From a virus, in the IMG/VR virus record IMGVR_UViG_3300044627_002832, positions 1 through 40,191 of that record: 40,191 nucleotides of DNA; one strand, 5' to 3'. The position numbers and the translations under genes were made by a program. This document shows positions 1,052 through 37,632 of this stretch, one piece after another. Within the stretch, counting starts at the first letter, position 1. The number at the start of each line of letters is the position of its first letter. The notes beneath the pieces are model-generated. The model searched no databases. It was given only the letters and a program-made list of their open reading frames with translations, and was not told where the DNA came from.

Positions 1052-3271
1052 ATGGCCAACATCCCGCTCGTCCAAATTCCCAACGCTCCCGCGACCGGAT
1101 CGACCGCCGTGCCGCTGCCGGTAGGGGCCATCCGCACGCCCGACATCGAACTCGCGGGCATGATCGACGACGCGAGCTACATGGCTGTTGGGCAGGCGTA
1201 TTCCAACTTGGGCAACGCCGGTCAAAAAGCTGCCAACGTGTTGGGCGACTTTGCTCTTAACATGGCCGAAGCCAGCGACGAGGCGAACCTTGACGCCGCT
1301 GACCGCATCAAATCCGACATGCTGTCCAAATTTGAAGTAGACACCATGACCAAGCCGGAAAGCGAGTGGAGTCGAATTTGGGAAAACAACTACGCGCCGA
1401 AACTGCGCGACCAAGTTGGCTCGCTTCGCATGGCCACAGCCGGAGGCCGCAATCGTCGAGATGCGTGGCTGGCCAACACTGAAAACGCGGTGAAGTCAAA
1501 AGTGTTCACCGACGCCAACAAGGCCATGATCGGACGCGCCACGCAGGAAAAGAAAAACTACATTGAGCGGGCAAAGCGGGAGGGCCGTTGGGAAGACGCA
1601 ATGGCCGGATACCGACAAGGGGCTACCGTCGGACTGTGGACTCCAGAGGAAGCGGACGCGGGCATGATTGCTATCGAAGAAGAACAGCGCGTCAACACCA
1701 TGACCAACGTCATCCAGCAAAACCCCGCCCAGTGGCGCAAGGAACTGGCCAAGTATCAGAAGGAAGGCAAGAACCCCCACAAGCTACGCCCCGAACAAGT
1801 CCTGCAATTCCGCCGCATGGCCGAGGGAACCCACGCCCAGCTTCTCGACGACCTCAACAACGAGATGCTGACCCGTCTGGAAACCGAGAGCGCCGCCATC
1901 ACGAACGAAGACATCGAAAAGTTTTACACTCGTCCCGACATCGATGCGCCGCGGGAACTTATCAACAAGATGAAAGAATACCGCGGCTTCAAGTATGCCG
2001 ACACGCCGGAGGGTCAAGCCGACCAAGCCACGAAATTCAGCGACCTCTGGCAGAAAATTTTTTCCTACAACGCGGAGAAGGACATCAGCATGGCTGATCC
2101 CGACACGCACAAGCGCGAATACCAGCGCCTCATCAGCGAGATCGTGACGACCGCGCCGGAGGGCCAGCGCAAGCCTTTCATGGACACGCTCGACGGCATG
2201 GTATCGAAAGCCAACCAAGGGCAGAAATCGCGCACCGACGAAATCACCAGAAACCTTATCAACCAAACCACCAGTCTGGCCGAGTGGGGCCAGTTTGGCG
2301 ATGCGGGCAAATGGAAGAAAGAGCAGCGCGGCGATGTCACTGTGACCAAACCACAAGACGTCAATGCGTGGCTCAACGTGCAGACCAAGCGCCAGCAAGT
2401 GATCAACGAGATCCGCGACATGGTTAAAGACAACCCCGACCTTACCATTGAGCAGGCGCAAGATCGTTTTAGGGGCATCGTCGAGCCATACCTTGATCCG
2501 GCGGCTTCGTTTATGAACAAGCCGGAAGAAGAGGACGCATGGTGGAAGTCCATTATGGACGTCGCCACTTGGGCCGACTTCGCCATGAACCCGACGGCCA
2601 ACAACCCCAACGTGATGACCGCCGGTCTGGGCTTCCGCGGCTTTGGCGGGTCGCCTATGGACGGACTGCAAGACGCCGACGAACCGCTTCCTCCGGTGCA
2701 AGGCATGCCGCCAGCGCCCTCCTCCGAGAATTTCAGCGTGTCGAACCTTCCTCCGGCCAAGCAACCCATCGCAGGCCAGATCGCCAGCATGGCCGAGGCC
2801 GAGGGCTTGGGCCAATACACGCCGCACCTCATGCTCTTGGTCGCGCAGGAGAGCAACTTCAACCCCGACCAAACGATCAGCACCTCGTCGGCCCGCGGAC
2901 TCTTCCAGTTACTCAACGCCGACCGCAAACGCTTTGGCAGCGACAGCAGTCTCGACGGCCAGATCCGCGCCGGTTTAGCCAAAACCAAGGAGAACATCAA
3001 CGCCGCCCGCCGCGCCCTTGGCCGCGACCCCGACCCCTTTGAACTCTATGTCGTCCACTACCAAGGCATCGGCGCTGGGCCTGCTATCCTCAAGAACCCC
3101 GAAGGTGATTTCCGCCAGACGCTCGACGCCACCGGAGGCAAGGGCCACGCGGCAGAGGTAATGAAAGCCAACCCGTGGCTGGTGCGCGACAACATCCAAA
3201 CCAACCAAGACTTCATCGAATGGGTTCGCAAGCGCCTTTCCAAAAAAGCCGCTGACCTTGGCATGGCATGA
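1052..3271 (+). CDS. Ejection protein with C-terminal lytic transglycosylase domain
   Basis: 739 aa. Residues 1-500 are polar, largely helical and carry no motif I recognise; they probably form the internal-core or periplasmic tunnel part, as in T7 gp15/gp16. Residues about 570-700 match a Slt-type (goose-lysozyme-like) transglycosylase: the catalytic Glu is probably E600 in AQESNFNP, followed by SARGLFQLL and later YVVHYQGIGAG. In T7 the transglycosylase sits in gp16; here it is on the middle protein of the set. It would open the peptidoglycan locally during genome entry. The stop overlaps the next start (ATGA at 3268). Confidence 0.85.
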   Translation: MANIPLVQIPNAPATGSTAVPLPVGAIRTPDIELAGMIDDASYMAVGQAYSNLGNAGQKAANVLGDFALNMAEASDEANLDAADRIKSDMLSKFEVDTMTKPESEWSRIWENNYAPKLRDQVGSLRMATAGGRNRRDAWLANTENAVKSKVFTDANKAMIGRATQEKKNYIERAKREGRWEDAMAGYRQGATVGLWTPEEADAGMIAIEEEQRVNTMTNVIQQNPAQWRKELAKYQKEGKNPHKLRPEQVLQFRRMAEGTHAQLLDDLNNEMLTRLETESAAITNEDIEKFYTRPDIDAPRELINKMKEYRGFKYADTPEGQADQATKFSDLWQKIFSYNAEKDISMADPDTHKREYQRLISEIVTTAPEGQRKPFMDTLDGMVSKANQGQKSRTDEITRNLINQTTSLAEWGQFGDAGKWKKEQRGDVTVTKPQDVNAWLNVQTKRQQVINEIRDMVKDNPDLTIEQAQDRFRGIVEPYLDPAASFMNKPEEEDAWWKSIMDVATWADFAMNPTANNPNVMTAGLGFRGFGGSPMDGLQDADEPLPPVQGMPPAPSSENFSVSNLPPAKQPIAGQIASMAEAEGLGQYTPHLMLLVAQESNFNPDQTISTSSARGLFQLLNADRKRFGSDSSLDGQIRAGLAKTKENINAARRALGRDPDPFELYVVHYQGIGAGPAILKNPEGDFRQTLDATGGKGHAAEVMKANPWLVRDNIQTNQDFIEWVRKRLSKKAADLGMA

Positions 3272-6200
3272 GTATTTCCTTCGCCGCCACCCCGCAGTCC
3301 AAGGAAGCCCAGCAGGCGCGGACTTACACCGACCCCAGCGCCGGAGCGCCTCCGAGTCGCCGCAGCGGCTACAACGCGCCCTACGTCGATCTGGGCCACT
3401 GGAACAAGGTCTTCACCGACCAGAACTACTTCGACTCCATCGCCAAACAGAAAGGCATGACCGAGGGCGCGAAGGTCAGCCTGCATGGCGACGACTACGT
3501 CTACCGGCAAGCCATGATCGGCTACTTGGCCGACACCCGCAAGGTGCCACTTGATGACATGCGGTCGATCTTCGATGCGGAGAAAGACGGCTTTGCCAAG
3601 ACGGTCTTGGGCAAGCAGACGGCCAGCGCCCGCGAGATGTTCGACTGGCAGAAAGGGCAATTTGAGCGCAGCAACGAGAAGAAAGCCGCCGCCGACCAGA
3701 TCCTGCAAGGCGTCATCCGCCGCAGCCTTGAGGACGCGCTCTCCGGCGGCGACACACCCTTTGTCGAAAGCGTCGGCAAGGACATCAATGCCGCCGCGGA
3801 AATGTTTGACGACGAAGAAAAGTCCCGCTTGTGGGAAAAGGCCGAGGAACTCGACATGAAGATCCGCGCCTCGCAGGACAAATTTGCACCGGAGGCCCGC
3901 TTTATCTTCGACGCCCTCCAGCAGTCCACCGGACAAAAGACCGGCTTCGGAGCGCCCGACATGCGCGAGATGGCCTCCCGCTTTGCCCAGTTGCCCGACA
4001 ACCAGCGCAAGGCCATCTACGAACTGGCCGGAGGGTTTGCCCAGATTACCCAGACCGACAAAGGCTTTTGGTATCAGATGGCCGAATCCCTTGGCCGCGG
4101 GGCCAGCGACATCGTCGAGCGCGTGCCGCGCAACTTCCGCGAGCAGACGCTCCGCGGTCAGCTTCGCCTCTTGAATAGCGACCAGCCCGTCTTCCGCGCC
4201 GCGGGCGTGGCCGGTGCCGAGTTCAGCGCCGCGGGCAACACGCCGGTCTTCGGAGCGACCCAAGGTCAGATGCTGACGCCGGAAGAACGCGAGGAGGCCA
4301 AGGCCAAGATCCAGTCCGACCTTGGCGTCTTGAAGGTCGAGCGCGAACTGCGCGACTTGGCCGAGCGCGTCGTCGATCCCATCAAGACCATTGGCGTCCT
4401 GCCGGAGATTATCGAAGAAGGTCTTTACGGTGCCGCCCGCAGCATCCCTTACACCGCCGCCGCCGCGGTGCCGATTGCGGGCGCTCCCGCCGTGGCCTCC
4501 GCGCTGTTCAGCAGCAACTACGACCGGATCATGCTGGAGTATCCCGACCTTGATCCCGACAAGGCCGCGCTTCTCGCCGCCATTTCCGCGCCCATCGAAG
4601 CCGGTCTGGAGCGCATGAAAGTCAACACCATCATGGGCCGGTTGCCCTTTTTTGGCGGTTTAGTCAAACGCTTCCAGCATCCGAACCAGCGCAACATTAC
4701 CCGCATCGCTATTGGCGGGGCGGGGGTTTTGGCCGAGCAAAACGCGCAGGAGATTTTGCAAAACGCCACCTTTCCGTTTGTCCAGATGATCGGGGCCGCG
4801 CTCGACGAGGATATCCCCGATTACAATCTCGACTTGGCCAGCATGCCGCGGGACTTGGCGGTGCAGTTTGTCGCCCTACTTCCGCTTTCCCTGATGGGTA
4901 TCGGTGCGCTCTCCTACCGCGAAATCAGCCGCGGCGAGAACTACCTCAAGAGCAAGGCCGACTTGGGGAAAGCTGGATACAGTGAGGAGCAGATCGACCG
5001 CATCACCGGAGCCGCCACCGCAGACGAGGCCCAAAGCATCCTGCGCGAAGAATCCAAAAAGCGCGACCCCAAGCTACTCAAAGCCGCCGCCCAGCGCATC
5101 GTGGACGAGTCCATCGCCCTGCGCGAGAAGGCCAATCCCGCCGCCCTGCCGCGTCTGGAGAAGCAGGGGGCCGACTACGTTGTCCTCTCGCCGGAGGGCA
5201 AGGAACTGGCCCGCACGACCGACCAGACCGCCGCCGAGCAGGCGCTGGTTTCCGCCCGCCGCGAGACAGTGCAGCGCGAGATGCGCGACGTCCACAACGG
5301 CATCAACTTCGCTATGGATTGGATTCGGAGGGTCAGTGACGCACGCGACCGCGGCGAAGACATCACACAGCTTATTCGTGAAGTTTCTGGCCGCACCCTC
5401 TTTACCGACTACGAGGCCAACCCGTCCAAAGACAATCTCGACCGCTTGTTTGAGACGGCGCGGGTTTTTGGCGGTGATCCCAAGGAACCGGAAGACCTCA
5501 AGATGTTTCCGGTTATTGGCAGCAACCAAGGCGCACTGCGCGAGGGCATCTGGCGCTCCATCATCCGCATCAACGAGGGCGCGGACGGCACCATCGTCAT
5601 GCGCGAGTTTGCCCAAGACAACCTCAAGCGGGCGCTGGCCGAGAACCGCGTCACGATGGATTGGGTGCGCCAACAGCTAAACGAAATTTTGCCGCAAATT
5701 GAAAGCGACCGCATCCAGCGCCGCCTCCGCACCGAGACGGACACCGACGTCATCGAAGCCTTTTCTGACGTTGCCTTGGCCTACTTCCGCGGTCAGATCC
5801 GCGAGGAGCAGATCCCCGAAGGACTGCGCGGGTTTTTCCGGCGCATGGCTATCATCGTTGGAGACATCTTCCGCCGCGCCTACAACCTCGCCCGCCTCCG
5901 CGCCGAGGGAAAACTCGACCGCGACTTTGAAGCACTCTTGGCCGAAGCGGTGGGCGTTGACCAGCAGGCACTGGTTGACCGCGCCCGCGAGCGGACGGAG
6001 CAAGAGGTGGGGGCGCAAGCAACAGCGCAGACGGTTCAAAATTACTCCATCACTTTTGCCGACAACAAACAGCGCGTCACCTCGTATCACCTAACCAACG
6101 ATCCTAACTTCGTTTTGGACAAAGCGCGTAAACCGCAGAATAACACAACTTTTGGCGGCGATTGGCCAAACGCTGGAATTTTTGTCGGGCCGTCTGCCGA

Positions 6201-9200
6201 GCGGTGGTTCAACGGTTACGGTTACACGCGACCTTTTGTGGTCGAGTTGTCGCATCCACCAGTTGCCACGATGGGTGGCAAAGCTATGCCGGAAGGTGGC
6301 TACGGCGGCGAAATGTTTATTCCTGCCGAAGAGTTTGACAACGTCACAATTGAGCGGGTCATTCCTTATGACGAATACGCCAGAGAGCAATTTGGGGAAT
6401 ACGGCCCAATAGAGACTTACAACGAGACTGACGCGCAAGGAAGCGCATTGCCTCCCATTGTTGGCGCTTGGGGCGCACGAGACACCGCTTCACTACAAAA
6501 TTACCGCTACAGTGGAAAGGATGTGCGCGAAATGTCTCCAGAGCAGCAACGCGCTTTGGCCGAAAGAACAGAGAAGTATGTTCGCGCAGTAAGGCCGCAG
6601 CAGAATTACTCCATCGTCCGCTCCGTCGATCACTACAGGAACGACACTCGCTTCGACAAGCTGGTCAAAGACGGACGAGTGTTCACTGGCGTGGACGTCA
6701 ACGACTTTACCGACATGCACATTCTGCTGCACTCGCCGGATAACGCCTTTGCCGGAACGATCCAGTTGACCGACGGCGGCGAGATCAAAGGCAAGGGCGG
6801 CGTCTACTATCCGGCGCTCTATGCCGACAAAAACTACTTCTGGGCGTCCACCGAAGCAATGGTCATGCGGACGGCCAACCACCTCAACGAGATCGGGGCA
6901 AAGAACGGCGGCAGGATTCTCATGGGCCTCGTCTCCGCGCCGGTCGAGAAGTTGTTCTCCTCGACATCGATGGCCACGGGCGTCGTCAAGTTTTTGAACG
7001 CGCTGACCGCGGACGCCAGAGCCGGTCTATCCAAGGACGATCTGAACGCGATGCTCATTGCGGCAAGCAAGGTGGAGGTCGTCAAAAAAACAAAAGACAA
7101 ACCCCCCGTTGTCAAAAGATTCAAGACGGCGCTTAAAGACGGCGCAACCTACGCGCAGAACCTTGCCAAGATCGACGCACTGCTGGAGCCAGACAACTCC
7201 GTATTCCAAGTCCGCAAGGCGTTTGTGGAATCGCTGGCCGAGAAAGTATCCAAGCACCTCAACGCCAACAAGGACAACGCGAAGTATGTCGCGGGCATTC
7301 TGGCGGATGCCGAGAACAAGCACGCCAAAAACTCCATCAAGCGCGGGACACTATCCAAGGCGTCGTTCTTGCAAGGTCTGGGCAACATGCTCACCGAGCC
7401 TTTCCTGCGAGACTTTCAAGAACACGGGAACGGCAAGATTTACGCCATCGTCGAAGTGCAAGGCGAGGTCAAGGGTATCGCTACAACGGAGCATGAATCG
7501 TATCCGGCGACCATTGTGCCGGTGAATAAAAAGTCCAAGGTCAAGCTGCACGTTTTGAAAGAGGCCGTCGATTGGCAGCGCGTTGTTGGCAAGGACAGTG
7601 GCAAGTATACGACGAAAAAAGAACGTCTGAAACTACTGCCAACCTCCGGCATGTCCTCCACCTCGCTCAAGGTGCTGGGCGTCAAGGCGGGCAGCAGCGC
7701 GAATTTGCTGAACTACTCCATCCTTGCCCGCTACGAGGGCATGCCGAGCGTCGTCGTCGAGGGCGGGCGTCCTTACTCGCCAATCGTCCGCGACCTTTTG
7801 CAACGTCGAGCGGCAGGCGAAGACATTCCGCGGGAAGTTATCGACCAAGCCATCAACGAGAACTTCCCAGCGCAGCTTGTCGAAGTGCCGCGCTCCGTAG
7901 CGGAATTGCCAGACCGCGCAACAATTGACGACGCCATTGACAGGGGTCAGCGCGACAAGCGCGTTGACGTCTCGACAATCGAAGCCGGTGAAAAGGTTGC
8001 CATCCGGCAAGATGTTCCGGCCATGACGCGCAAAGGCGTTGGCGTTGTCACCGTCAAAAGCAAAGCCGGAAACTCCTACGAAGCCGCCGTCCGCATCACC
8101 GAGCCAGAGTTTATCCTCAACGAAAAGAAGTCGCTGCGTATTGCAATGGGCGAAGCCAAGGGGCCGCACATTGTGATCAATGGCAAGTGGGCCGCGGATC
8201 AATCAATGCCCGACGACTTGGAGACTTGGACGCAAGTGGGCTACAACCCAGACCGTCACAGCTTTTACTATGACCGCGCCACGATGCAGCAAGTGACCGG
8301 AGGCTCCGAGGCTTACCAAATCGGCAACACCGTTTTCGTCAAAGACGCGCAATACGGAGACGGCCAGATTTCCGACATTTCCTACTCCATCTCCACCCAG
8401 CGCGAAATCGACCGCGTCGGCGCGGCGTTGAACCGGCTGGAGCGCAGTCCTCTCGACTCCTTGGGTTACACCGAGAAGATCCGCCAGCGGTTCGCGCAGA
8501 TCATGGCCGAGAACATGGTCGAATTGCAGGCCATGCAGCAGGGCGGGGTAGCCGAGCGCACCGTCCTCGACGAAGAAGGAAACCCCATCGGCCCGCAACC
8601 GGATGCCGCCAAGACCAAGGCGACCGGAGCCGAGATGCGCCGCACCAAGTTTTTGCAGGCGCTGGGCGAACTCGACGGCCTGCTTTCGGTGCTGCCGCCG
8701 CAAGTCGCCGCCAAAGTGGGCGGTTATACGGTGCTGACCAACATCGGCACCGGAGACAGGGCGCTTTCCAACTTCTTCATCAAGCGTCTGGAGATGATCG
8801 ACAAGGAATTGGAACGCTACCTCAAAGACCGCTACACGACGGCGCTCAAGGAGCTATTTAAGCGGGCGAAGCCGAAGCGTGACGACGCGGGCAAGGTTCC
8901 CAAGGGCAAGCTGGGCGCAGGAGTTCACACGCTGTTTGAACGGTTGGAGGAGGCCGTCGAAATGTCGTCGGTCGAGATCGACGGCGAGATTGCCAGCTTG
9001 GAGCAGCAGATCGCATCCGGTGAATTGGAACCGGAGCAGGAAGCGGCCAGCATTTTGCTCTCCGACTCGCTGCCGCTGTTTGGCGAGTGGAAGACCGCGG
9101 ACGCCTCGCGCATGGCGCAGGCCGTCCAGATGGGCTACGACATTTACCGCATCGCCTACAAAAAGCAGCAGGCCAAAGCAATGCTCCGCAAGAATCTGCG

Positions 9201-11301
9201 CGACCAAGAACGCATTGATGCCAAGGACGCCTCTGGTGCGCCAGACGACACCGCGCCGGTTCGCCAGCAAAACAAAAACGAGGCCGAGCAACTCAAGTCA
9301 AAGACCAAGGGAATCGTCACCAACTTGCTGGGGTTTGACCAACTCATGTCGCTGGTTTTTGGGCGCGACAGCGCGTTTACCAAAAAGTGGGTCAACTGGC
9401 AGCGCAAGTCCGACAACGCCAAAGACGATGAGTTCAACGCGGTCTACGACCAGTGGTCAAAGTTTCTCGCCACGCTGACCAAACACAAAAAGCCCTACAG
9501 CATGAAGGCGACTTACGCGGGGCAAGACCTGTCGTTTGCCATGTCGGAACCCAAATACAAAATCAAGCACACCAATCCCTTTGGCGAAGACGTCGAGTTT
9601 ACTTTCGGTCAAGCCGACCTCCTTGACATCACGATGATGTGGATGCAGCCCAAGGGGCGGGCGCACATGATCGGCAAGCTCGACGATTATGGCGATCCCA
9701 TTGACGATTGGAGCTACGACCAGACTTTTGTCAACAAAGCCGAGGCACTGCTGACCGACGAGGCCAAGGCCATCCGCGACTTTTTGCTCAACGACTACGC
9801 CGAGCAATGGAGCGAACTCAATGAGGTTTTTGTTAAACTCAACGACATCAATCTGCCACAAGAGCAGTTTTACTCGCCGCTGTCGGTCAACCCCGTTCAG
9901 ACGACACAAAATCAAACTGTCGATCCGTTGACCGGATTTGCCGTCGCCGTCCCGAACCGCACGCCGCCCTCGCTGCGCTCCCGCGGTGCCGCCGTGGCCG
10001 AGCCGGTCTTCAGCAACGCCATCAACAAGTGGTTCGCGCACCGTTTGCAAATGGCCCACTGGAAAGCGTATGCCGAGTTTAACAACGAGGCGCTGTCTGT
10101 GCTGGGCCACCGCAATGTCCGCAACGCCATTGAGGCTAAAGTTGGCCAAGCTGGACTTACATCACTTCAAAGCTATCTCACCTATTTCCAGCAGGGCGGA
10201 AACCGCGCCGCCGACGCTAATCTTGAACTAACCAAAGCGTTAAGTGGCATATTGGGCCGCGCCATCACAATGTCGCTGTTTGGACGCATTGGCACCGTTC
10301 TCATCCAGTTTACCCAGCTTGGCGCTGCCGCGGCAAAAATGCCGCTGCACGCTTATCTACGCCGGTTTGCCAAGCTGATGACCGGACAGATGGGCTGGGG
10401 CGAGGCGCTCAAGTCGCCATACATCCAGCGCCGCATTAACCAACAGCCGCCACAGGTTCAAGTGGCAATGGCCGGATTGCGGGCCAACAAGCCAAGCCAA
10501 ATCCGCGAAGCCGCCCGCAGGGTGGGTTGGCTATTAAGCGGCAACGACGGTCTGGCCACCGCGGGAACCTACGCGATGGTCTACGACTACCAACTGGAGC
10601 AAATGAAAAAGGCGGGCATGACCGGCGCACAGGCTGAAGCCGCCGCCCGCGAAGAAGCCGAGCGGGCAGTTGACGAGATTGCCCAGCCGACCAGAGCCGG
10701 TGCCAGATCCGCGTTTGAGTTGAGCCAGACCAGTCCAATGCAAACAGTGGCGTGGGCATTTGGCTCCGAGCCGCGCAAGAATGTGGCGCTTCTTGCCTAT
10801 CTCCAGCGGGCCAAGCAGCCGCTGTCTGAAAAAGGCCGCGCCTTGCTTTATGTGCTGCTTATCAACGGAGTGTTTGGTGCAATTTTGCGGACAATGCTAC
10901 GCGACTTGCGCGACGACGAAGACGACGAAATTTTCGATTGGGACGACACATGGAGTCCAAAGCGTCTTGCGCTGATGGTGCTGACCGAGCCTCTTTACGG
11001 TGTGCCGGTTTTGGGCGAAATGTCCGAGGAAGCCATCTTCCGCGCCTTCCGCGAGTATCGACCAGAGGGTTCGCTTTACAGCGTGGCCGACCCCGCTTTC
11101 AGCCTGTCCCGCATGCCGGAGCATGTCAGCAATTTGCTGGAAGGCGAGGTGGATGGACGCCGTTTGGTTAAAGACATCAACAACATCCTACGAGGATTTG
11201 GCTATGCCTATCCAGCCGCAGCCGGTGCCGCCGCCTTGTCGAACCTTGGCAAGGAAGTCTACGAAATGGCTGACAACGTCTTTGGAGACGACGACGAATA
11301 A
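3268..11301 (+). CDS. Giant polyvalent DNA-ejection protein (gp16-like core with inserted domains)
   Basis: 2677 aa. Hydrophobic, membrane-compatible stretches occur near residues 385-415, 525-550, 2320-2355 and 2525-2550. Residues about 925-1110 resemble an ADP-ribosyltransferase-like or toxin-like domain (YHLTNDPNF, then GIFVGPSAERW, FVVELSHP and GGEMFIPAEEFD). Residues about 1113-1480 form another inserted domain. Residues about 1560-1690 match a domain widespread in phage polyvalent proteins (GEKVAIRQDVPAM, later TQVGYNPDRHSFYYD). The C-terminal third, with the motif DEIAQPTRAGARSAFE near residue 2475, resembles the helical core of virion ejection proteins. The peptide (N/S)YSI recurs at residues 925, 1113, 1482 and 1705, at apparent domain borders. 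It probably travels in the virion and enters the cell with the DNA. Domain borders are estimates. Confidence 0.75.
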   Translation: MSISFAATPQSKEAQQARTYTDPSAGAPPSRRSGYNAPYVDLGHWNKVFTDQNYFDSIAKQKGMTEGAKVSLHGDDYVYRQAMIGYLADTRKVPLDDMRSIFDAEKDGFAKTVLGKQTASAREMFDWQKGQFERSNEKKAAADQILQGVIRRSLEDALSGGDTPFVESVGKDINAAAEMFDDEEKSRLWEKAEELDMKIRASQDKFAPEARFIFDALQQSTGQKTGFGAPDMREMASRFAQLPDNQRKAIYELAGGFAQITQTDKGFWYQMAESLGRGASDIVERVPRNFREQTLRGQLRLLNSDQPVFRAAGVAGAEFSAAGNTPVFGATQGQMLTPEEREEAKAKIQSDLGVLKVERELRDLAERVVDPIKTIGVLPEIIEEGLYGAARSIPYTAAAAVPIAGAPAVASALFSSNYDRIMLEYPDLDPDKAALLAAISAPIEAGLERMKVNTIMGRLPFFGGLVKRFQHPNQRNITRIAIGGAGVLAEQNAQEILQNATFPFVQMIGAALDEDIPDYNLDLASMPRDLAVQFVALLPLSLMGIGALSYREISRGENYLKSKADLGKAGYSEEQIDRITGAATADEAQSILREESKKRDPKLLKAAAQRIVDESIALREKANPAALPRLEKQGADYVVLSPEGKELARTTDQTAAEQALVSARRETVQREMRDVHNGINFAMDWIRRVSDARDRGEDITQLIREVSGRTLFTDYEANPSKDNLDRLFETARVFGGDPKEPEDLKMFPVIGSNQGALREGIWRSIIRINEGADGTIVMREFAQDNLKRALAENRVTMDWVRQQLNEILPQIESDRIQRRLRTETDTDVIEAFSDVALAYFRGQIREEQIPEGLRGFFRRMAIIVGDIFRRAYNLARLRAEGKLDRDFEALLAEAVGVDQQALVDRARERTEQEVGAQATAQTVQNYSITFADNKQRVTSYHLTNDPNFVLDKARKPQNNTTFGGDWPNAGIFVGPSAERWFNGYGYTRPFVVELSHPPVATMGGKAMPEGGYGGEMFIPAEEFDNVTIERVIPYDEYAREQFGEYGPIETYNETDAQGSALPPIVGAWGARDTASLQNYRYSGKDVREMSPEQQRALAERTEKYVRAVRPQQNYSIVRSVDHYRNDTRFDKLVKDGRVFTGVDVNDFTDMHILLHSPDNAFAGTIQLTDGGEIKGKGGVYYPALYADKNYFWASTEAMVMRTANHLNEIGAKNGGRILMGLVSAPVEKLFSSTSMATGVVKFLNALTADARAGLSKDDLNAMLIAASKVEVVKKTKDKPPVVKRFKTALKDGATYAQNLAKIDALLEPDNSVFQVRKAFVESLAEKVSKHLNANKDNAKYVAGILADAENKHAKNSIKRGTLSKASFLQGLGNMLTEPFLRDFQEHGNGKIYAIVEVQGEVKGIATTEHESYPATIVPVNKKSKVKLHVLKEAVDWQRVVGKDSGKYTTKKERLKLLPTSGMSSTSLKVLGVKAGSSANLLNYSILARYEGMPSVVVEGGRPYSPIVRDLLQRRAAGEDIPREVIDQAINENFPAQLVEVPRSVAELPDRATIDDAIDRGQRDKRVDVSTIEAGEKVAIRQDVPAMTRKGVGVVTVKSKAGNSYEAAVRITEPEFILNEKKSLRIAMGEAKGPHIVINGKWAADQSMPDDLETWTQVGYNPDRHSFYYDRATMQQVTGGSEAYQIGNTVFVKDAQYGDGQISDISYSISTQREIDRVGAALNRLERSPLDSLGYTEKIRQRFAQIMAENMVELQAMQQGGVAERTVLDEEGNPIGPQPDAAKTKATGAEMRRTKFLQALGELDGLLSVLPPQVAAKVGGYTVLTNIGTGDRALSNFFIKRLEMIDKELERYLKDRYTTALKELFKRAKPKRDDAGKVPKGKLGAGVHTLFERLEEAVEMSSVEIDGEIASLEQQIASGELEPEQEAASILLSDSLPLFGEWKTADASRMAQAVQMGYDIYRIAYKKQQAKAMLRKNLRDQERIDAKDASGAPDDTAPVRQQNKNEAEQLKSKTKGIVTNLLGFDQLMSLVFGRDSAFTKKWVNWQRKSDNAKDDEFNAVYDQWSKFLATLTKHKKPYSMKATYAGQDLSFAMSEPKYKIKHTNPFGEDVEFTFGQADLLDITMMWMQPKGRAHMIGKLDDYGDPIDDWSYDQTFVNKAEALLTDEAKAIRDFLLNDYAEQWSELNEVFVKLNDINLPQEQFYSPLSVNPVQTTQNQTVDPLTGFAVAVPNRTPPSLRSRGAAVAEPVFSNAINKWFAHRLQMAHWKAYAEFNNEALSVLGHRNVRNAIEAKVGQAGLTSLQSYLTYFQQGGNRAADANLELTKALSGILGRAITMSLFGRIGTVLIQFTQLGAAAAKMPLHAYLRRFAKLMTGQMGWGEALKSPYIQRRINQQPPQVQVAMAGLRANKPSQIREAARRVGWLLSGNDGLATAGTYAMVYDYQLEQMKKAGMTGAQAEAAAREEAERAVDEIAQPTRAGARSAFELSQTSPMQTVAWAFGSEPRKNVALLAYLQRAKQPLSEKGRALLYVLLINGVFGAILRTMLRDLRDDEDDEIFDWDDTWSPKRLALMVLTEPLYGVPVLGEMSEEAIFRAFREYRPEGSLYSVADPAFSLSRMPEHVSNLLEGEVDGRRLVKDINNILRGFGYAYPAAAGAAALSNLGKEVYEMADNVFGDDDE
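4657..4668 (+). repeat. GGTTTAGTCAAA motif copy inside the giant gene
   Basis: Exact 12-base core of the dispersed motif. It is read as Gly-Leu-Val-Lys with a TTA leucine codon. It is not near a gene start, so it may be chance or a non-initiation role. Confidence 0.4.
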
Positions 11302-16894: not shown

Positions 16895-17456
16895 ACCCAA
16901 GACGCGCCCGCGGATCACCGCGCAGGACGTCGAGGAGATTGCCCGCAAGCACGGAGTCAAAGACTCTGTCGCTATTGTGGGCATCCGCGGCTATTACCTC
17001 CGCACGCTTGGCGACCCGAAAAAGAACGACCGCAACATCTGGGATGACTGCATTGCAGTGATCTCGCCCACCGCGTTCGCTGCTTACAACGGCAACACTG
17101 ACCCGTCGTTTTGGCGGAAAGGGATCGCGTCACTCGTTGAAGGCGTCCACCAATACCGGAAGGGCAAGCACGGCATTTCCCGCGGCAATCCTTATCCGGC
17201 GCTGCGCCCAGCCAACCCCAGCGAATCGCTGCCTGTGACGCGGGACGGACAGCTTGGACGCTCGCAGGGCGTGGCCATTAACATTCACCGCGGGGGCAGC
17301 ATCAGTTCGGTATCACAATCTGTGACTTCAAGTCTTGGATGCCAGACGATCCCACGCGAGCAGTGGCCCAGCTTCATCGGCCTCGTTTACGGGGAGATGG
17401 ATCGCTACGGGCAGAAGGTCATTCCTTACGTTCTAACGTCGGCACAGAACGCCTAA
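16881..17456 (+). CDS. Putative endolysin with L,D-transpeptidase-like (YkuD-type) signature
   Basis: 191 aa when started at 16881. An upstream start at 16860 is possible, but 16881 gives the lysis-operon-style short overlap. No signal peptide is evident. Near residues 140-165 it has INIHRGG followed about 15 residues later by SSLGCQTIP. This recalls the His...Ser-x-Gly-Cys active site of L,D-transpeptidase folds. Several phages carry such folds in the endolysin position, presumably cutting peptide cross-links. Placement right after a lipoprotein and a holin supports lysis. The enzymatic activity itself is inference. Its 3' end overlaps the convergent integrase by 38 bases. Confidence 0.55.
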   Translation: MPATKPKTRPRITAQDVEEIARKHGVKDSVAIVGIRGYYLRTLGDPKKNDRNIWDDCIAVISPTAFAAYNGNTDPSFWRKGIASLVEGVHQYRKGKHGISRGNPYPALRPANPSESLPVTRDGQLGRSQGVAINIHRGGSISSVSQSVTSSLGCQTIPREQWPSFIGLVYGEMDRYGQKVIPYVLTSAQNA

Positions 17457-18573
17457 TCGCTTCGGCCATAGTTTGTATCGAAGCATGAGTGTAGTTGTTG
17501 CTGACCTTTGTCGAATCGTGGTCGCAGACGAGTTGTCGGACGCGCTGATCAACCCCTGCGTCGAGCATGAGGCTGTTGATCGTATGTCTCCAGCTATGAA
17601 AAGACTTGTCAGTCACCCCGCGACCCTTGCCTTTCTTCTGGGTCGTCGTCCGTGTGATACCGGCGCGGTCGAGTAGACGGGTAAACGTGCGCGAGGCCAC
17701 GCTGGCCGTCATGCTGGAAAGACTGGGCGTGATTTGACCCGTCCCGCGGAGGATGGAAAGTTCACCTACGAGCGGCACAGAAACTACGCGGGCCTTGCGA
17801 CTTTTTTTCTCCGGCACAAAGCGCAGGACGCCGTCTTCAATTTCTTCGTAGCTCCGGCGCGTGGCGTCTCCCAAGCGCATCCCGTAGTAAAGCCCGAAGA
17901 GGCAGGCGACTTTCCATTCTGGCTCCGCGGCGGCAAGAATGGCGTTAATGTCCGCGGTGCTAAACGGCTTGCGGCCAGATTGCGGCCCGTCCTCGCTCAT
18001 GCGAAACAGCGCCGCCGGATTGGCGTCGATCTGCCGGAGGTGCAGGGCGCGGTGCAAGACGCCGCGGACGGTTTTGGTGATCTGCTGGGCGCTGGTGCGG
18101 GAGAGGCCGCGCTTGAGCAGATCGTGGTAGAAGGCGCTGATGTCGTCCGGCTCGACCGACTGAAGGTCATGCCGCGCTCGCTGGCCAAGGAAATCCGCAA
18201 AATGCTGACAATGCTTTATGTAGCTCTCCATGCTGCGAGGCTTGGCCGTCTTTGCGTCCAGAAAGCCCTGTGCGGCCTTTTCCCAAGTGGTGCGCCTCCG
18301 CGCCCCTTGGACGCCCGCGGCCCGCATAAGCGCCTCCAAGCGTGACCTGTGGAACACCTCGTCCGGTATCTGGTCGCGTAGCTCCCGACCGATCCGCTCC
18401 ATCTCGTCGGCGTAACGCTGGGCCACGCGGCGTGAAATTGTCTTGTGGGGCATTTTGGTGCTACGACAAGTCTGCCGCCAAAAGCCGCCATCGGGATGTT
18501 CAGACGATGTCGCCCAGACGCGCATCCGCGCCATCCAGTAGGGACTGTTGGAAAGGGTGATGAGGGAAGCCAT
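17419..18573 (-). CDS. int: Tyrosine-family site-specific integrase
   Basis: 384 aa from the ATG at 18573 (residues start MASLITLSNSPYW); an in-frame ATG at 18618 would add 15 residues. Catalytic residues are visible: Arg233 in YGMRLGDA, a Lys around residue 257 in KKSRKARV, His326-x-x-Arg329 in HSWRH, His352 in CDHD, and the nucleophile Tyr361 in NNYTH. The middle holds a SAM-like core-binding domain. It would integrate the phage at the attP next to its 5' end. It is the only minus-strand gene and converges with the putative endolysin. Confidence 0.95.
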   Translation of the reverse strand: MASLITLSNSPYWMARMRVWATSSEHPDGGFWRQTCRSTKMPHKTISRRVAQRYADEMERIGRELRDQIPDEVFHRSRLEALMRAAGVQGARRRTTWEKAAQGFLDAKTAKPRSMESYIKHCQHFADFLGQRARHDLQSVEPDDISAFYHDLLKRGLSRTSAQQITKTVRGVLHRALHLRQIDANPAALFRMSEDGPQSGRKPFSTADINAILAAAEPEWKVACLFGLYYGMRLGDATRRSYEEIEDGVLRFVPEKKSRKARVVSVPLVGELSILRGTGQITPSLSSMTASVASRTFTRLLDRAGITRTTTQKKGKGRGVTDKSFHSWRHTINSLMLDAGVDQRVRQLVCDHDSTKVSNNYTHASIQTMAEAIRRSVPTLERKE

Positions 18574-18631
18574 AGTTGGCACAGCCAGTTCTACACTAAA
18601 ATGCCTACAATGCATCAAGAAAATAGTCCTT

Positions 18632-32675: not shown

Positions 32676-32966
32676 ATGACCAACGACAAAGAACTGGAGC
32701 GCAGCAAAAGCATCCAGCGCATTAACAACGCCTACTACCGCTGCTTTGACAGCGAGGATGGCCGCGTCGTCTTGGACAACCTCCGCGCCTACTTCCGCAT
32801 GAACCGGCCAGCCTTTGAACGCACGCTGGGACGTCCGTTTGACCCCATCGCCGCCGCGGTGCGTGACGGCCAGCGCGAGGTCATCCTTTTTATCGAACAC
32901 AAACTTTCGCTGCCCGTCGTCGGAGATGCCGACGTTGAGCGGCCCTCCACCGAAGTCCTCCGCTAA
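32676..32966 (+). CDS. Bbp19-like small late protein
   Basis: 96 aa. The pattern YYRCFDSEDGRVVLDNL...FDPIAAAVRDGQREVILFIEH is that of the Bbp19-like family found right after the portal in many podoviruses. The molecular role is not established. Only a 7-codon ORF lies in the 25 bases before it. Confidence 0.7.
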   Translation: MTNDKELERSKSIQRINNAYYRCFDSEDGRVVLDNLRAYFRMNRPAFERTLGRPFDPIAAAVRDGQREVILFIEHKLSLPVVGDADVERPSTEVLR

Positions 32967-32970
32967 ACGC

Positions 32971-32984
32971 GGTTTAGTCAAAAC
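32971..32984 (+). repeat. Boundary motif copy GGTTTAGTCAAAAC
   Basis: Exact motif, 20 bases before the scaffold ATG at 33005. CTAAAC at 32963-32968 forms an inverted repeat with GTTTAG (CTAAAC-GCG-GTTTAG). Confidence 0.7.
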
Positions 32985-33004
32985 ACTAACCAACCAACAC
33001 CACC

Positions 33005-33868
33005 ATGATCGATGCAACCACCACCTCCGAAATCAGCACCACCGCGGACGCCGCTGTTCCCGCGTCCACCGCACCCGCTGCTAACACCAGCGTCACAACC
33101 GAAGGGACACTCCTTTCCAGTGCGCCTGCCAGCGTTACCAACGCGCCAGCGCCCGAAGTAACCGAAAAGCCCGAATGGCTACCGGAGAAATTCTGGCGCA
33201 ACGACAAGGCTGACGTTGAAAGCCTTTCCAAGTCCTACCAAGGGCTGGAGCAACTCTTGGGCAAGAAGGCCAACGCCATCGTTCCCCCCAGCGAGAAGTC
33301 CACGCCGGAGGAAATTGCCGCCTACCGCAAGGCCATCGGCGTTCCCGAATCTCCCGAAGCCTACAACCTCAAACCGGAGCAACTGCCCGAAGGCGTCGTC
33401 TGGGATGAGAGCGTGGCCAAGCGTGCCGCGGAACTGGCGCACAAGCACAACGTGCCTGCCGCCGCGATGCAGGAGTTTATGAAGTTCGACATGGAGCGGG
33501 CCGCGCTGATGAACCAAGCCGCCGCCCAGATGATCGAAACGCAACTGGAAACCGGACGCGCCGAACTCCAGAAGGTGTGGGGTGACAAGATGCCGGAGAA
33601 GATCGAACTGGCTCGCCGCGCCGCGGTGACCGCCGGAGTCGATCCGACCAGCCAAGGCTTTGTCGATCCGCAAGTGGTCAAGGCCATCGTCAACCTCGCG
33701 GAGAAGTTGTCCGACGACAAGCTGGTAGCCGGTGATCAGACCGGAGTGAGCAGCACACGCGCCCGCGCCAAGGACATTATGACCAACGCGGCGAACCCGC
33801 TTTACCTTCGCTACCAAGAGGGTGACGCGGAGGTGGTTGACCAAGTGCGCCGGATGCTGACGGTTTAA
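33005..33868 (+). CDS. Capsid assembly scaffolding protein
   Basis: 287 aa. A disordered Ala/Thr/Ser-rich N-terminus (residues 1-50), then the family segment PEWLPEKFWRNDKADVESLS followed by SYQGLEQLLGKK, then a long helical, acidic body. This is the standard layout of T7-type scaffolds. The capsid gene normally follows directly, but four accessory genes are inserted here. Confidence 0.85.
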   Translation: MIDATTTSEISTTADAAVPASTAPAANTSVTTEGTLLSSAPASVTNAPAPEVTEKPEWLPEKFWRNDKADVESLSKSYQGLEQLLGKKANAIVPPSEKSTPEEIAAYRKAIGVPESPEAYNLKPEQLPEGVVWDESVAKRAAELAHKHNVPAAAMQEFMKFDMERAALMNQAAAQMIETQLETGRAELQKVWGDKMPEKIELARRAAVTAGVDPTSQGFVDPQVVKAIVNLAEKLSDDKLVAGDQTGVSSTRARAKDIMTNAANPLYLRYQEGDAEVVDQVRRMLTV

Positions 33869-33878
33869 CCGGCTCATC

Positions 33879-34619
33879 ATGGCCAACAAAACCAAGGGCT
33901 GGCAGAAGTTTCTGGCCTGCACATGCACCCACGGGTCAGAGGCTGATCCGCGGGCGCTGGACGCCATCTTGAGACTGCGCGAAGCGTGGAAGCCGGATTT
34001 CGTCCTGCATCTGGGCGATGCGATCGATGCCCGCGCATTACGCTCCGGCGCTCGCAAGGACAGCGACAGCGCCGACCACGGGGCCGATCTGGCCGACGAC
34101 TTGATGCAGGGACTGGCTTTCCTGCGCGAACTCAAGCCCGACGTTTACCTATTCGGAAACCACGAAAGTCGATTGACCGAACTGGCCCACAGTCCGAACG
34201 CGGTCTTGTCCTATGCGGCCAGCAGCGTCCTGTCCCGCATCGAGGACGAGATGGGCAAGCTCAAGTGCCAGATCATCCCCTACGCGGGCGTCCACCGAAG
34301 CGGCATGTTCATGCTGGGCGACACCGGATTCACCCACGGCGCGATGTATAACGTGTCGGCGGCGCGGGACACCGCGGAAATGGTGGGCCATTCGGTCGTC
34401 ATGGGCCACACCCACCGCGTAGCGATGGAGAGCGCCCGCATCCACAACAAAGCCATCGGTTACAACATCGGGTGCGGGATCAAGTTGGACATCGGGTATT
34501 CGTCGATCCGACGGCAAACGCTGGGATGGCGACACGCCGCGTGTTTCGGGTCGTTCAATGGAACCAACTGCAACGTGAACATCGCGGTCTTCGATCCGCA
34601 CTACGAACTGCCCTTATGA
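33879..34619 (+). CDS. Calcineurin-like metallophosphoesterase
   Basis: 246 aa. Motifs: Asp47 in LHLGDAID, Asn94-His95 in GNHES, His153 in THGAM, and His177/His179 in GHTHR. The usual first motif DxH is replaced by CTH in ACTCTHGS, so the first metal ligand Asp is missing or moved. The substrate is unknown (nucleotide, DNA end or protein phosphate). It heads a four-gene ATGA-coupled cassette between scaffold and capsid. Confidence 0.8.
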   Translation: MANKTKGWQKFLACTCTHGSEADPRALDAILRLREAWKPDFVLHLGDAIDARALRSGARKDSDSADHGADLADDLMQGLAFLRELKPDVYLFGNHESRLTELAHSPNAVLSYAASSVLSRIEDEMGKLKCQIIPYAGVHRSGMFMLGDTGFTHGAMYNVSAARDTAEMVGHSVVMGHTHRVAMESARIHNKAIGYNIGCGIKLDIGYSSIRRQTLGWRHAACFGSFNGTNCNVNIAVFDPHYELPL

Positions 34620-34867
34620 AACAAATCAAAGCCGACAAACAACTGGAACAATGGTGCCAAGCCCTTTCGCAGCCCACTATTCCGGTCGAAAAGGTGCCGG
34701 AGGGATGGTTTACGATCAAGCAACTGGCCAAGGCCCGCGGGCGCAGCGAGTGCATCACCAGCACACAAGTGCGCCGGATGATCGAGCAGGGCTTGGCCGA
34801 TAAGCGCAACTTCACCATCCGCCTCTCCGAGCGCGTCCGGCCAGTCCCTCACTACCGACTCAAATGA
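34616..34867 (+). CDS. Small winged-helix/HTH-like protein
   Basis: 83 aa from the ATGA overlap. The segment GWFTIKQLAKARGRSECITSTQVRRMIEQG resembles a helix-turn-helix, followed by FTIRLSERVRPVPHYRL as a possible wing. It may be a DNA-binding regulator of late genes, but the assignment is weak. Confidence 0.5.
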   Translation: MKQIKADKQLEQWCQALSQPTIPVEKVPEGWFTIKQLAKARGRSECITSTQVRRMIEQGLADKRNFTIRLSERVRPVPHYRLK

Positions 34868-35154
34868 TCCGCCGCACCCCTACAAAACGTGTCGCCATCG
34901 ACGGCAAAACGTGGCGGGTCAAGATCCAGCGCCCACCGGCCCGCGTGACCCACGACGGGCTGTGCGTGAAAGACGACCGGACAATCTACATCCACCCCGA
35001 CGCGATCAGCCACCGCGGCATTGAACTGGCCTGCCATGAGATCGTCCATGCCCGTCTCTTTGACTTGGACGAGCAGTGCGTGGAAGAGATCGGGCGTCTG
35101 GTCAGCGAAGTTTGTGGCTGGCTGGCGCGGCACAACGACGGAATCATTTCGTGA
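34864..35154 (+). CDS. Small zinc metallopeptidase-like protein (HExxH)
   Basis: 96 aa. His58-Glu59-Ile-Val-His62 (CHEIVHARLFDLDEQCVEEI) is a zinc-peptidase motif with acidic residues further on as the possible third ligand. The size matches minimal SprT- or ImmA-like phage metallopeptidase folds. It is coupled by ATGA to both neighbours. Being beside scaffold and capsid genes, it could process virion proteins, but a host target is equally possible. Confidence 0.65.
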   Translation: MIRRTPTKRVAIDGKTWRVKIQRPPARVTHDGLCVKDDRTIYIHPDAISHRGIELACHEIVHARLFDLDEQCVEEIGRLVSEVCGWLARHNDGIIS

Positions 35155-35297
35155 CCTTCTGGCCGCTCCTTGCCTGCACGCTGCTTTACTTTGCCACCGC
35201 GGTAGGGTGGTGGAGGCAGGGCGATCCGGCGATGGCCGTCATCTTTTTCTTCTACGGGTGCGCCAACGGCGGATTCTTGTGGGCGGCGTTGCGCTGA
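35151..35297 (+). CDS. Small two-span membrane protein
   Basis: 48 aa, GTG start overlapping the previous stop (GTGA). Two hydrophobic helices (FWPLLACTLLYFATAVGWW and MAVIFFFYGCANGGFLWAAL) separated by a short charged loop. The function is unknown. It ends the accessory cassette. Confidence 0.5.
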   Translation: MTFWPLLACTLLYFATAVGWWRQGDPAMAVIFFFYGCANGGFLWAALR

Positions 35298-35300
35298 AAT

Positions 35301-35337
35301 TTCGACACGTTTTGTCGATATGTCGAAGCCTTCGACA
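35301..35337. promoter_or_regulatory. Tandem inverted repeats upstream of the capsid gene
   Basis: TTCGACACGT occurs at 35301-35310 and again at 35331-35340. TCGACA-CGTTT-TGTCGA (35302-35318) and TGTCGAA-GCC-TTCGACA (35321-35337) are perfect dyads. The array fits an operator for a dimeric regulator, or two hairpins at the end of the accessory cassette transcript. Confidence 0.5.
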
Positions 35338-35350
35338 CGTTGCCAAAATT

Positions 35351-35373
35351 TTTTTGACTAAACCCTTGCGCCA
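35351..35373 (-). repeat. Boundary motif, reverse orientation, with TTGCGCCA
   Basis: TTTTTGACTAAACCC (35351-35365) is the reverse complement of GGGTTTAGTCAAAAA. It runs into CTTGCGCCA (35365-35373), so here the two elements are fused. Confidence 0.65.
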
Positions 35374-35384
35374 CTTCTGGCGCA
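35367..35384 (+). terminator. Hairpin TGCGCCA-CTTC-TGGCGCA
   Basis: Perfect 7-bp GC-rich stem with a 4-base loop, 12 bases after a T tract (35349-35355). A terminator would normally have the T tract after the stem, so it may act on the minus strand or as an RNA structure before the capsid gene. Confidence 0.4.
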
Positions 35385-35531
35385 GCGCAATTCTCGCTCA
35401 CAGTTAGGCAGACAACTCCTTGTGGAGCCTGTCCAACGCGCATTGCCCAAGGCCGACGACCCGCGCTCGCGGATAATCGGTAGCGCCGAGGACACCACAA
35501 CCAATCAACCCGACAAGGCCCGCAATAACGT

Positions 35532-35546
35532 GGGTTTAGTCAAAAC
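35532..35546 (+). repeat. Boundary motif copy GGGTTTAGTCAAAAC
   Basis: Exact motif before the major capsid gene. The SD sequence AAGGAG (35548-35553) follows directly and the ATG is at 35561, so the motif lies upstream of the ribosome-binding site, not in its place. The remaining 35385-35531 shows no gene or clear promoter. Confidence 0.75.
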
Positions 35547-35560
35547 CAAAGGAGTTAATT

Positions 35561-36472
35561 ATGGCAACTGCCGTTAATCAAATCCCGCAATACTTCACGA
35601 CGGAGTTCTCCAGCAACTGGGAGCATCTGCTTCAGCAGAAACTTTCCAAGCTGCGCGAATACGTTTCCGTCGAGACAGTCCGCGGCAAGGAGAAATCCTA
35701 CAACCAAATGGGCGCAGTGGAGATGCAACGCATCACCAGCCGCGCAGCCGACACCAACATCAGCGATGTGGCCTTGGCCAAACGCTGGCTTCGCCCCTAT
35801 CCGTTTGAACACGCCACGTTGTTCGACGAGTGGGACAGCGAGTATCTGGGCGAGGTCAGCCTTCCCCAGAGCGAGACGGTTGCCAATCACGCCGCCGCCT
35901 ATGCCCGCACCGCCGACAAGGTGATCATCGATGCCGCCCTTGGCAACGCCTACACCGGAGAGACTGGCGTCACCGCGACCGCTTTGCCCGCTGGGCAGAA
36001 GATCGCCGTGGACTACGTCGAAACCGGATCGACGGCCAACAGTGGCCTCACCATCGCCAAGCTGCGTCAAGCGGCGTTCCTGCTCACCAACGCTGAAGTT
36101 GATGACAGTGACCCGCGCATCATGGTCGTTTCCGCCAAGCAGATCCAAGATTTGCTTCGCACGACCGAGGTGACCAGCGGCGACTTCAACACCGTTCGCG
36201 CCTTGGTCAATGGCGAGATCAACACGTTCATGGGATTCACCTTCCGCCGTGTTGCTTCCGGCCTCCTGCCCTACGCGAGTGGAACCGGCGTCCGCACCTG
36301 CTTCGCCTACGTCAAGTCCGGCATCAAGCTGGCCGACGCGGGACGCAAAGTGCATGTCGATATCCGTGCCGACAAGAGCCACGCCTTGCAGATCCGCACT
36401 GTCGCCTCTTTGGGCGCAACGCGCATGCAGGAAGCCAAAGTCGTCGAAGTCCCGTGTGACGAAGTCCTCTAA
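35561..36472 (+). CDS. Major capsid protein
   Basis: 303 aa with a strong SD sequence. The N-terminal helix (QIPQYFTTEFSSNWEHLLQQ), then KLREYVSVETVRGKEKSYNQ and the RYPFEHATLFDEWDSEYLG-type segment match a podoviral capsid family with an HK97-like fold (Phage_capsid_2 type). Length, position after scaffold, and a strong ribosome site all support it. It forms the icosahedral shell. Confidence 0.85.
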   Translation: MATAVNQIPQYFTTEFSSNWEHLLQQKLSKLREYVSVETVRGKEKSYNQMGAVEMQRITSRAADTNISDVALAKRWLRPYPFEHATLFDEWDSEYLGEVSLPQSETVANHAAAYARTADKVIIDAALGNAYTGETGVTATALPAGQKIAVDYVETGSTANSGLTIAKLRQAAFLLTNAEVDDSDPRIMVVSAKQIQDLLRTTEVTSGDFNTVRALVNGEINTFMGFTFRRVASGLLPYASGTGVRTCFAYVKSGIKLADAGRKVHVDIRADKSHALQIRTVASLGATRMQEAKVVEVPCDEVL

Positions 36473-36497
36473 CAACTAACCAAGGAGAACAACCAAC

Positions 36498-37026: not shown

Positions 37027-37632
37027 ATGGCCGACGAAACCTCCATCTGCAACTTGGCTTTGGCCAAGCTGGGCATCAGCCCGATCATGGCGCTGACCGA
37101 CGACAGTAAGCAGGCCCAGTTTTGCAACCGTTTCTTCGCCCAAACCCGCGACGAAGTCCTGCAAGGGCATCGCTGGAACTTCGCCATGCGTCGCGCCGCG
37201 CTCAACAAGCTGGCCACCGCCCCGCAGAGCGAATGGGAGAGCGCCTACCAGTTGCCGGTCGATTGCCTGCGCGTCGTCCAACTCAATGGCTACGAACCCA
37301 ACGAAAGGCTGGGGGAGTTTAGTGTCGAAGCCGATCAGCTTCTGACCAACGCCGAGGAGGCCAACATCCGGTATGTTGCCCGCGTGGAGGACGGATCGTT
37401 TTACCACCCACTTTTTGTCCATGCGCTGGCCACCATGCTGGCCTCGCGTTTGGCAGGCCCGCTCACCGGAAGCCGCAACATGCCGCAGGAGTTGCTGCAA
37501 GAATACGAAGCCATCACCGGCCCCAAGGCCCGCATGGCCGACGCCTTTGAGGAGCGTCTCCGGCGCAAGATGCCGTGGACGAACAGCGACCTTGTCGCCG
37601 CCCGCTACACCAAGTTCCCGTCCAGCCAATAG
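37027..37632 (+). CDS. Tail tubular protein A (T7 gp11-like head-tail adaptor)
   Basis: 201 aa. The start TSICNLALAKLGISPIMALT, the segment RDEVLQGHRWNFAMRRAALN, and the LPVDCLRVVQLNG strand are typical of gp11 family proteins. It attaches below the portal and joins the nozzle protein encoded next. No SD is visible; translation may depend on the ATG context after the hairpin. Confidence 0.9.
   Translation: MADETSICNLALAKLGISPIMALTDDSKQAQFCNRFFAQTRDEVLQGHRWNFAMRRAALNKLATAPQSEWESAYQLPVDCLRVVQLNGYEPNERLGEFSVEADQLLTNAEEANIRYVARVEDGSFYHPLFVHALATMLASRLAGPLTGSRNMPQELLQEYEAITGPKARMADAFEERLRRKMPWTNSDLVAARYTKFPSSQ

Follow-up and report, generated by a model that had tools for sequence, protein, structure and literature searches.

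A modular, mobile four-gene phosphoesterase cassette between the scaffold and capsid genes of a podovirus-like phage

Accessory gene cassettes and phage-encoded metallophosphoesterases (MPEs) are both known already. Mycobacteriophage A10ZJ24, of cluster A, encodes the MPE gp48, a toxic phosphodiesterase with DNA-degrading activity that the phage requires against host defense; the D10G substitution in gp48 abolishes phosphodiesterase activity, nuclease activity and toxicity alike (PMC12287305). A second cluster A enzyme, gp54 of mycobacteriophage D29, has primase and nucleotide-metabolism genes as its neighbors. Among solved structures, Mre11/SbcD and PolD DP1 carry two-metal site motifs of the MPE type, and in ImmA/ImmR and IrrE/DdrO a small HExxH protease gene overlaps an HTH gene. 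Phage morons and lysogenic-conversion cassettes provide the comparison for the locus as a whole.

The window, that is, the whole 40,191-bp stretch of DNA analyzed here, is the virus record of a podovirus-like phage encoding a PF12236 portal, a Bbp19-like protein, a phrog_3742 scaffold-like protein and a PF19821 capsid protein (Table 1). Its tyrosine integrase indicates a phage that is probably temperate; because 11 of the 12 cassette-carrier records tested encode an integrase, the same probably holds for carriers in general. The carriers are uncultured and appear to be freshwater phages, as judged from the sampling pattern and not from a record field. A distant match to phage P8625 is the sole pointer to the host and hints at Verrucomicrobiota; neither of the two MPE alignments found a relative in two GTDB genome-contig scans.

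A first-pass annotation had described four ORFs, joined through ATGA or GTGA overlaps, between the scaffold and capsid genes, and both the coordinates and the overlaps proved exact: ATGA joins MPE to HTH and HTH to HExxH, and GTGA joins HExxH to the membrane (TM) gene. The MPE start lies 10 bp past the scaffold stop. A search of 32900-35700 gave no sigma-70-type promoter, the one promoter type covered, and revealed no terminator-like site on the + strand. The start of the cassette just 10 bp behind a late structural gene, where nothing promoter-like was seen, suggests late expression, which fits awkwardly with early counter-defense and leaves room for a late-acting or virion-packaged role.

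Table 1. Coordinates of features (window positions unless another record is named)
Feature	Position	Strand	Description
Scaffold-like gene	33005..33868	+	phrog_3742; left boundary of cassette insertion
Metallophosphoesterase (MPE) gene	33879..34619	+	246 aa; phrog_221 family, calcineurin-like; motif I C-T-H for D-x-H
wHTH/HTH-like gene	34616..34867	+	83 aa; small, winged-helix/HTH-like; conserved VPxGW...PHYRLK
HExxH gene	34864..35154	+	96 aa; small HExxH-x7-E metallopeptidase-like protein
Membrane (TM) gene	35151..35297	+	48 aa; GTG start; two hydrophobic segments
Candidate structured RNA leader of capsid gene	35404-35542		spacer between membrane ORF and capsid ATG (35561)
Major capsid gene	35561..36475	+	PF19821; right boundary of cassette insertion
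Tyrosine integrase	17419..18618	-	PF00589, E=2e-9
MPE2 example	L072:4938-5753		DLH, NGD, GTECHT and HRH motifs
GGTTTAGTCAAAA sites	2972, 4657, 11327, 16579, 24623, 26697, 30088, 32971, 35533	+	
GGTTTAGTCAAAA sites	24030, 35352, 39959	-	
ORF for 739-aa protein	1052-3271		transglycosylase SLT domain; precedes 2,677-aa ORF; likely ejection or polyvalent protein
Single 2,677-aa ORF	3268-11301		likely ejection or polyvalent protein
Three tandem diverged copies of gene matching window 37027-37632	L087:7220-8875		47-49% identity each; single copy in other relatives

The four-gene set recurs in one fixed order, MPE-HTH-HExxH-TM as scored by stop codon, in 96 distinct cassettes, 53 of them in podoviruses with window-like head genes and 43 in contigs without those genes. 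Apparent MPE-HExxH-HTH orders were rejected as an artifact of sorting by over-extended ORF starts. A 4-bp overlap is the commonest junction both between MPE and HTH (51 of 96 cassettes) and between HTH and HExxH (73 of 96). Median pairwise dN/dS is 0.15-0.19 for each cassette gene with no sampled pair above 1, values that are rough because some pairs are close to synonymous saturation; these comparisons indicate that purifying selection acts on all four genes. The occurrence of the same genes in the same order in unrelated phages bears out the earlier view of a self-contained unit and disposes of the concern that the four might never co-occur elsewhere. No close relative of the MPE or HExxH proteins was matched in named phage or plasmid collections, and the searchable fraction of the literature yielded no description of this four-gene set.

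Within its podovirus clade, the cassette behaves like a core gene set, fixed in all sampled close capsid relatives. At capsid identities of at least 80%, all 71 sampled loci with enough upstream sequence carry at least three cassette genes (tblastn); 19 of the 71 have no match to the window-type MPE, and those checked have an alternative MPE. The cassette is missing from the five loci at 50-80% capsid identity and from 27 of 27 loci below 50%. In L230-L232, L238, L258 and L264, the scaffold-capsid gap is free of cassette genes and holds a short unrelated ORF at most, in agreement with the first-pass statement that scaffold and capsid genes are normally neighbors. The cassette resembles phage morons and lysogenic-conversion cassettes in occupying different insertion sites, in residing in unrelated temperate phages and in having no counterpart among head-gene relatives beyond the clade; unlike morons, it has no promoter or terminator of its own recognized in the window and is fixed, not sporadic, in the podovirus clade. 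The lack of recognized transcription signals of its own weakens only the "classical moron" label.

Outside the phage group of the window, the cassette adjoins a tyrosine integrase and/or an amidase plus tail-fiber-like block (L028, L145, L155 and L174), and PF12236 is not present in the L028, L034, L026, L062 and L097 records. One siphovirus-like carrier (G001, a 39,284-bp record) was compared whole with the window. It encodes a prohead protease of the Clp type along with tape-measure-like and large terminase-like ORFs, and its cassette adjoins an integrase. Apart from the cassette itself, it matches the window only in a single DUF3799 exonuclease-like gene and in short stretches. Occurrence in unrelated phage types marks the cassette as an accessory module rather than head-building machinery.

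DNA homology across these contexts begins and ends at gene ends. L022 and L027 align at 84% over 761 bp, comprising the MPE plus 20 bp; the L051/L140 alignment is chiefly membrane gene, with a short piece of the MPE, and that of L055/L174 takes in the HExxH gene and runs into the beginning of the gene after it. Among genomes whose portals are 98-99% identical, the cassette alleles nevertheless vary independently in their identity to the window: about 98 or 70%, or absent (MPE2, described below), for MPE; about 88 or 36% for HTH; about 90, 60 or 38% for HExxH; and about 98 or 47% for TM. Alleles reshuffle almost exactly at gene boundaries. The cassette is thereby established as a modular, mobile and selected accessory operon, moving whole and gene by gene between unrelated phages.

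The same distribution bears on whether the cassette serves head assembly or maturation, or whether its products travel inside the head and leave it together with the DNA. Its location between scaffold and capsid, immediately past the scaffold stop, and its presence in every sampled close capsid relative would suit such a role, against which stand the existence of capsid relatives without it and the 43 distinct cassettes away from these head genes, located beside integrase and lysis genes where read. We consider a virion role quite improbable, and a role in head assembly only, which the first-pass annotation had named as the finding that would undo its proposal, is contradicted by those 43 cassettes.

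The window MPE falls within PF00149 (E=9e-8, 33.1 bits against a curated cut-off of 21.5) and matches phrog_221 (E=1.8e-19). The GD, GNHE, H and GHTH motifs are present, and motif I reads CTH ("ACTCTHG"), as had been noted from the translation. With the canonical D-x-H missing, membership of the PF00149 fold stands and the usual chemistry does not follow. The motif-I Cys is found in 133 of 145 homologs, and Asp occurs only in distant members (L061-L068); a window-type MPE with Asp at L187 was rejected, its ORF being truncated. The other metal ligands (G46 D47, G93 N94 H95 E96, H153, H177 and H179) are invariant in 27 aligned MPEs.

The distant members match MPEs of cluster A mycobacteriophages, D29 gp54 among them, as well as Verrucomicrobia phage P8625; the MPE family model recovers D29 gp54 at 3.5e-12 in a set of four phage records, with alignment across the whole domain. 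D10 of gp48 falls at the motif-I Asp both by the published primer and in the alignment with D29 gp54, so the window MPE is naturally substituted at a residue that is essential in a relative. The cluster A and window enzymes are both phage-encoded and have the GD, GNH and GHTH motifs in common; they differ in motif I, where gp48 has its essential Asp and the window MPE has Cys. They also differ in setting: the surroundings of D29 gp54 yielded no relative of the wHTH, HExxH or membrane genes, whereas the window MPE sits in a four-gene operon.

The loss of gp48 function on D10G raises the question of whether the window-type MPE is catalytically dead and has turned to a binding or structural function. 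Cys is itself able to coordinate metal, however, the gene is under strong purifying selection, and the Cys predominates among homologs in which the GD, GNHE, H and HxH ligands are invariant. The alternative MPE in the same slot, moreover, retains Asp. We give little credence to a dead enzyme; given Cys as a possible ligand and the conservation of the others, we infer from the alignments a site that works in altered form.

An AlphaFold2 model of the window MPE (pLDDT 88) adopts the MPE fold, with Z of 12-14.5 to MPE structures. The closest is PolD DP1 (Z 14.5, rmsd 3.2, 206 aligned), followed by Mre11 (Z 13.9); SapH, an Ap4A hydrolase/phosphodiesterase, scores Z 12.5, YfcE 12.4 and LpxH 12.3, and SapH is the top Foldseek match (E 5e-7). 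PDB sequence searches with three profiles gave chance matches only. Mre11/SbcD and PolD DP1 are thus the closest solved folds and share two-metal site motifs with the window MPE, from which they differ in sequence (13-16% identity) and in motif I, where the window has replaced the Asp; unlike Mre11/SbcD, the cassette has no Rad50/SbcC-like partner.

The first-pass suggestion that the cassette acts against host signaling or defense may be right in direction, since gp48, the nearest relative studied by experiment, has a counter-defense role. The fold matches also admit a reading, along the lines of that suggestion, in which the MPE degrades a cyclic or dinucleotide defense signal or an alarmone, with the remaining genes as helpers. 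SapH and YfcE would be fitting relatives for such an enzyme, and an arms race over signals would suit both the accessory distribution and the allele diversity. The near-obligate pairing of the MPE with a DNA-binding-like protein, described next, and the alignable relative gp48 point toward DNA instead, and PADLOC matched no known defense or anti-defense family among five proteins. We regard the nucleotide-signal reading as unlikely.

Pairing was counted at 121 distinct MPE loci whose downstream sequence was long enough, covering both MPE families. The wHTH gene lies directly downstream of the MPE in 119 of the 121, whichever the family. HExxH and TM are both present at 90 loci and never one without the other (0/121), and 29 loci have the wHTH gene without the HExxH gene. 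Allele linkage is highest for MPE-HTH (rho 0.68 in podoviruses) and lower for HTH-HExxH (0.36) and HExxH-TM (0.35). The MPE slot is occupied either by the window type or by MPE2, a dissimilar phosphoesterase-like protein assigned as a phosphoesterase by motif reading only (SDLHCGS, NGD, GTECHT and RAHRHCGG, with the motif-I Asp kept). The MPE2 family has no Pfam, PHROG or NCBIfam match; distant relatives occur in the named record MW202647 (Manatee Spring), with a wHTH-like neighbor, and in the methanogen virus record BK063671.

The second protein had been called HTH-like and a regulator. Most of 31 diverse homologs retain its winged-helix-like pattern and the PHYRLK at the C terminus, which upholds the first term in part; its MarR/AbiEi-type profile matches are all sub-threshold. 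Because the wHTH gene tracks the MPE even where the protease gene is missing, the "regulator" may instead be a predicted DNA-binding partner of the MPE.

Several further elements lie in the spacers and across the genome. The candidate RNA leader of the capsid gene comprises three hairpin regions with 36 pairs, 96.6% of cells being paired in 24 relatives; 10 pairs show two-sided changes (shuffled mean 4.1, 0/500 reaching 10), and sliding controls give 26-42% paired. Rfam gave no credible match on the cassette/leader region, a minus-strand mir-598 hit being rejected with a score far below the gathering score. A ~100-bp element, TTTGGCGGTGCGGCGTGGA...GCGGGTGCAAGTCCCGCCACCGCC, recurs in the spacer before the capsid gene in L051, L017, L047, L073, L090 and L087 and shows complementarity of the kind seen in the acceptor and T-arm of a tRNA; ARAGORN reported no tRNA for the spacers between cassette and capsid, this element included. 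A 13-bp asymmetric element, GGTTTAGTCAAAA, has 13 sites in the window (up to 2 mismatches) versus 0.5 expected, several of them 7-40 bp ahead of start codons, including those of scaffold and capsid. Each of five close relatives has 11-14 sites, and the reversed control has zero. The arrangement is reminiscent of that of L5-type stoperators (PMC9283540). The unrelated, siphovirus-type cassette carriers have none, and the cassette wHTH was rejected as reader of the element on that ground.

HExxH-x7-E is present in 153 of 154 homologs of the third protein, the lone exception being truncated, so the peptidase-like description holds. The window protein has no Pfam match even at E=1 and no NCBIfam match, and the M78/ImmA profile is not matched; an SprT-like profile appears among the homologs at sub-threshold level only (E 0.03-0.06). 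Its AlphaFold2 model (pLDDT 92) gives weak matches (Z 4.2-4.9) to IrrE/PprI, the minigluzincins selecase and abylysin, and Wss1. The best of these, IrrE (Z 4.9, weak; rmsd 4.1, 82 aligned), is tied with selecase and Wss1, and the HExxH-to-Glu spacing of the window family is presumably shorter than that of IrrE. Motif and model support a predicted small zinc peptidase and do not back placement in a family. The fourth product, correctly described as a small membrane protein, has hydrophobic segments at residues 3-19 and 27-43, and both segments are seen in 99% of 96 homologs.

By analogy with ImmA/ImmR and IrrE/DdrO, the HExxH protein could cleave the wHTH protein and so switch cassette expression or lysogeny. 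A small HExxH gene overlapping an HTH gene by ATGA, the weak structural matches to IrrE/PprI (Z 4.9 and 4.6) and the integrases encoded by carriers would agree with such a switch. The wHTH gene follows the MPE, however, and also occurs without the protease gene in the 29 loci counted above; the wHTH is not XRE-like, no M78/ImmA Pfam family is matched, and the absence of the 13-bp element from siphovirus-type carriers means that the wHTH is not its obvious reader. A protease-controlled switch seems very unlikely on this evidence.

The reading we favor, put forward tentatively as the likeliest of those considered though somewhat short of probable, is an exchanged accessory operon of two sub-units, a DNA-directed MPE plus wHTH and a protease plus membrane protein, with a role in conflict and not in virion assembly. 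In the first sub-unit, the MPE would be a DNA-directed phosphodiesterase/nuclease and the wHTH its DNA-binding partner; the enzyme would cut DNA or, less likely, a nucleotide signal, and the wHTH would supply specificity or control. In the second, a minigluzincin-like protease and the small membrane protein would hit a host or competitor target, or control the first sub-unit. The net effect would be host take-over, counter-defense or exclusion of competing phages. The DNA-directed part is suggested by the MPE model lying nearest DNA-processing MPEs, by the pairing with the wHTH and by the alignability of the MPE with the cluster A family of gp48. Against the favored reading, the motif-I Asp essential in gp48 is Cys in the window MPE; the structural scores of SapH, YfcE and LpxH are nearly as high, so that the fold does not single out one substrate class, and the HExxH fold matches are weak (Z <5). 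The apparent late expression, the core-like behavior within the podovirus clade and the negative PADLOC result also count against it. A further reading, which we hold possible but rather doubtful, is a modular phage conflict system that passes back and forth among unrelated temperate phages and combines a wHTH adaptor with interchangeable MPE effectors and, optionally, a protease-membrane sub-unit. Its interchangeable effectors would be the Cys-ligated class and the dissimilar DLH class, the latter without Pfam or PHROG match.

The cassette illustrates that genes embedded in the head operon of a phage can form a mobile accessory module, and that recombination acts on it gene by gene at overlapping start and stop codons. 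Its near-obligate pair of MPE and winged-helix protein outlasts replacement of the enzyme by another family, and this pairing offers a handle on the function of many "hypothetical" phage phosphoesterases. In the window-type enzyme, a catalytic metal ligand has changed naturally from Asp to Cys, a substitution open to direct testing.
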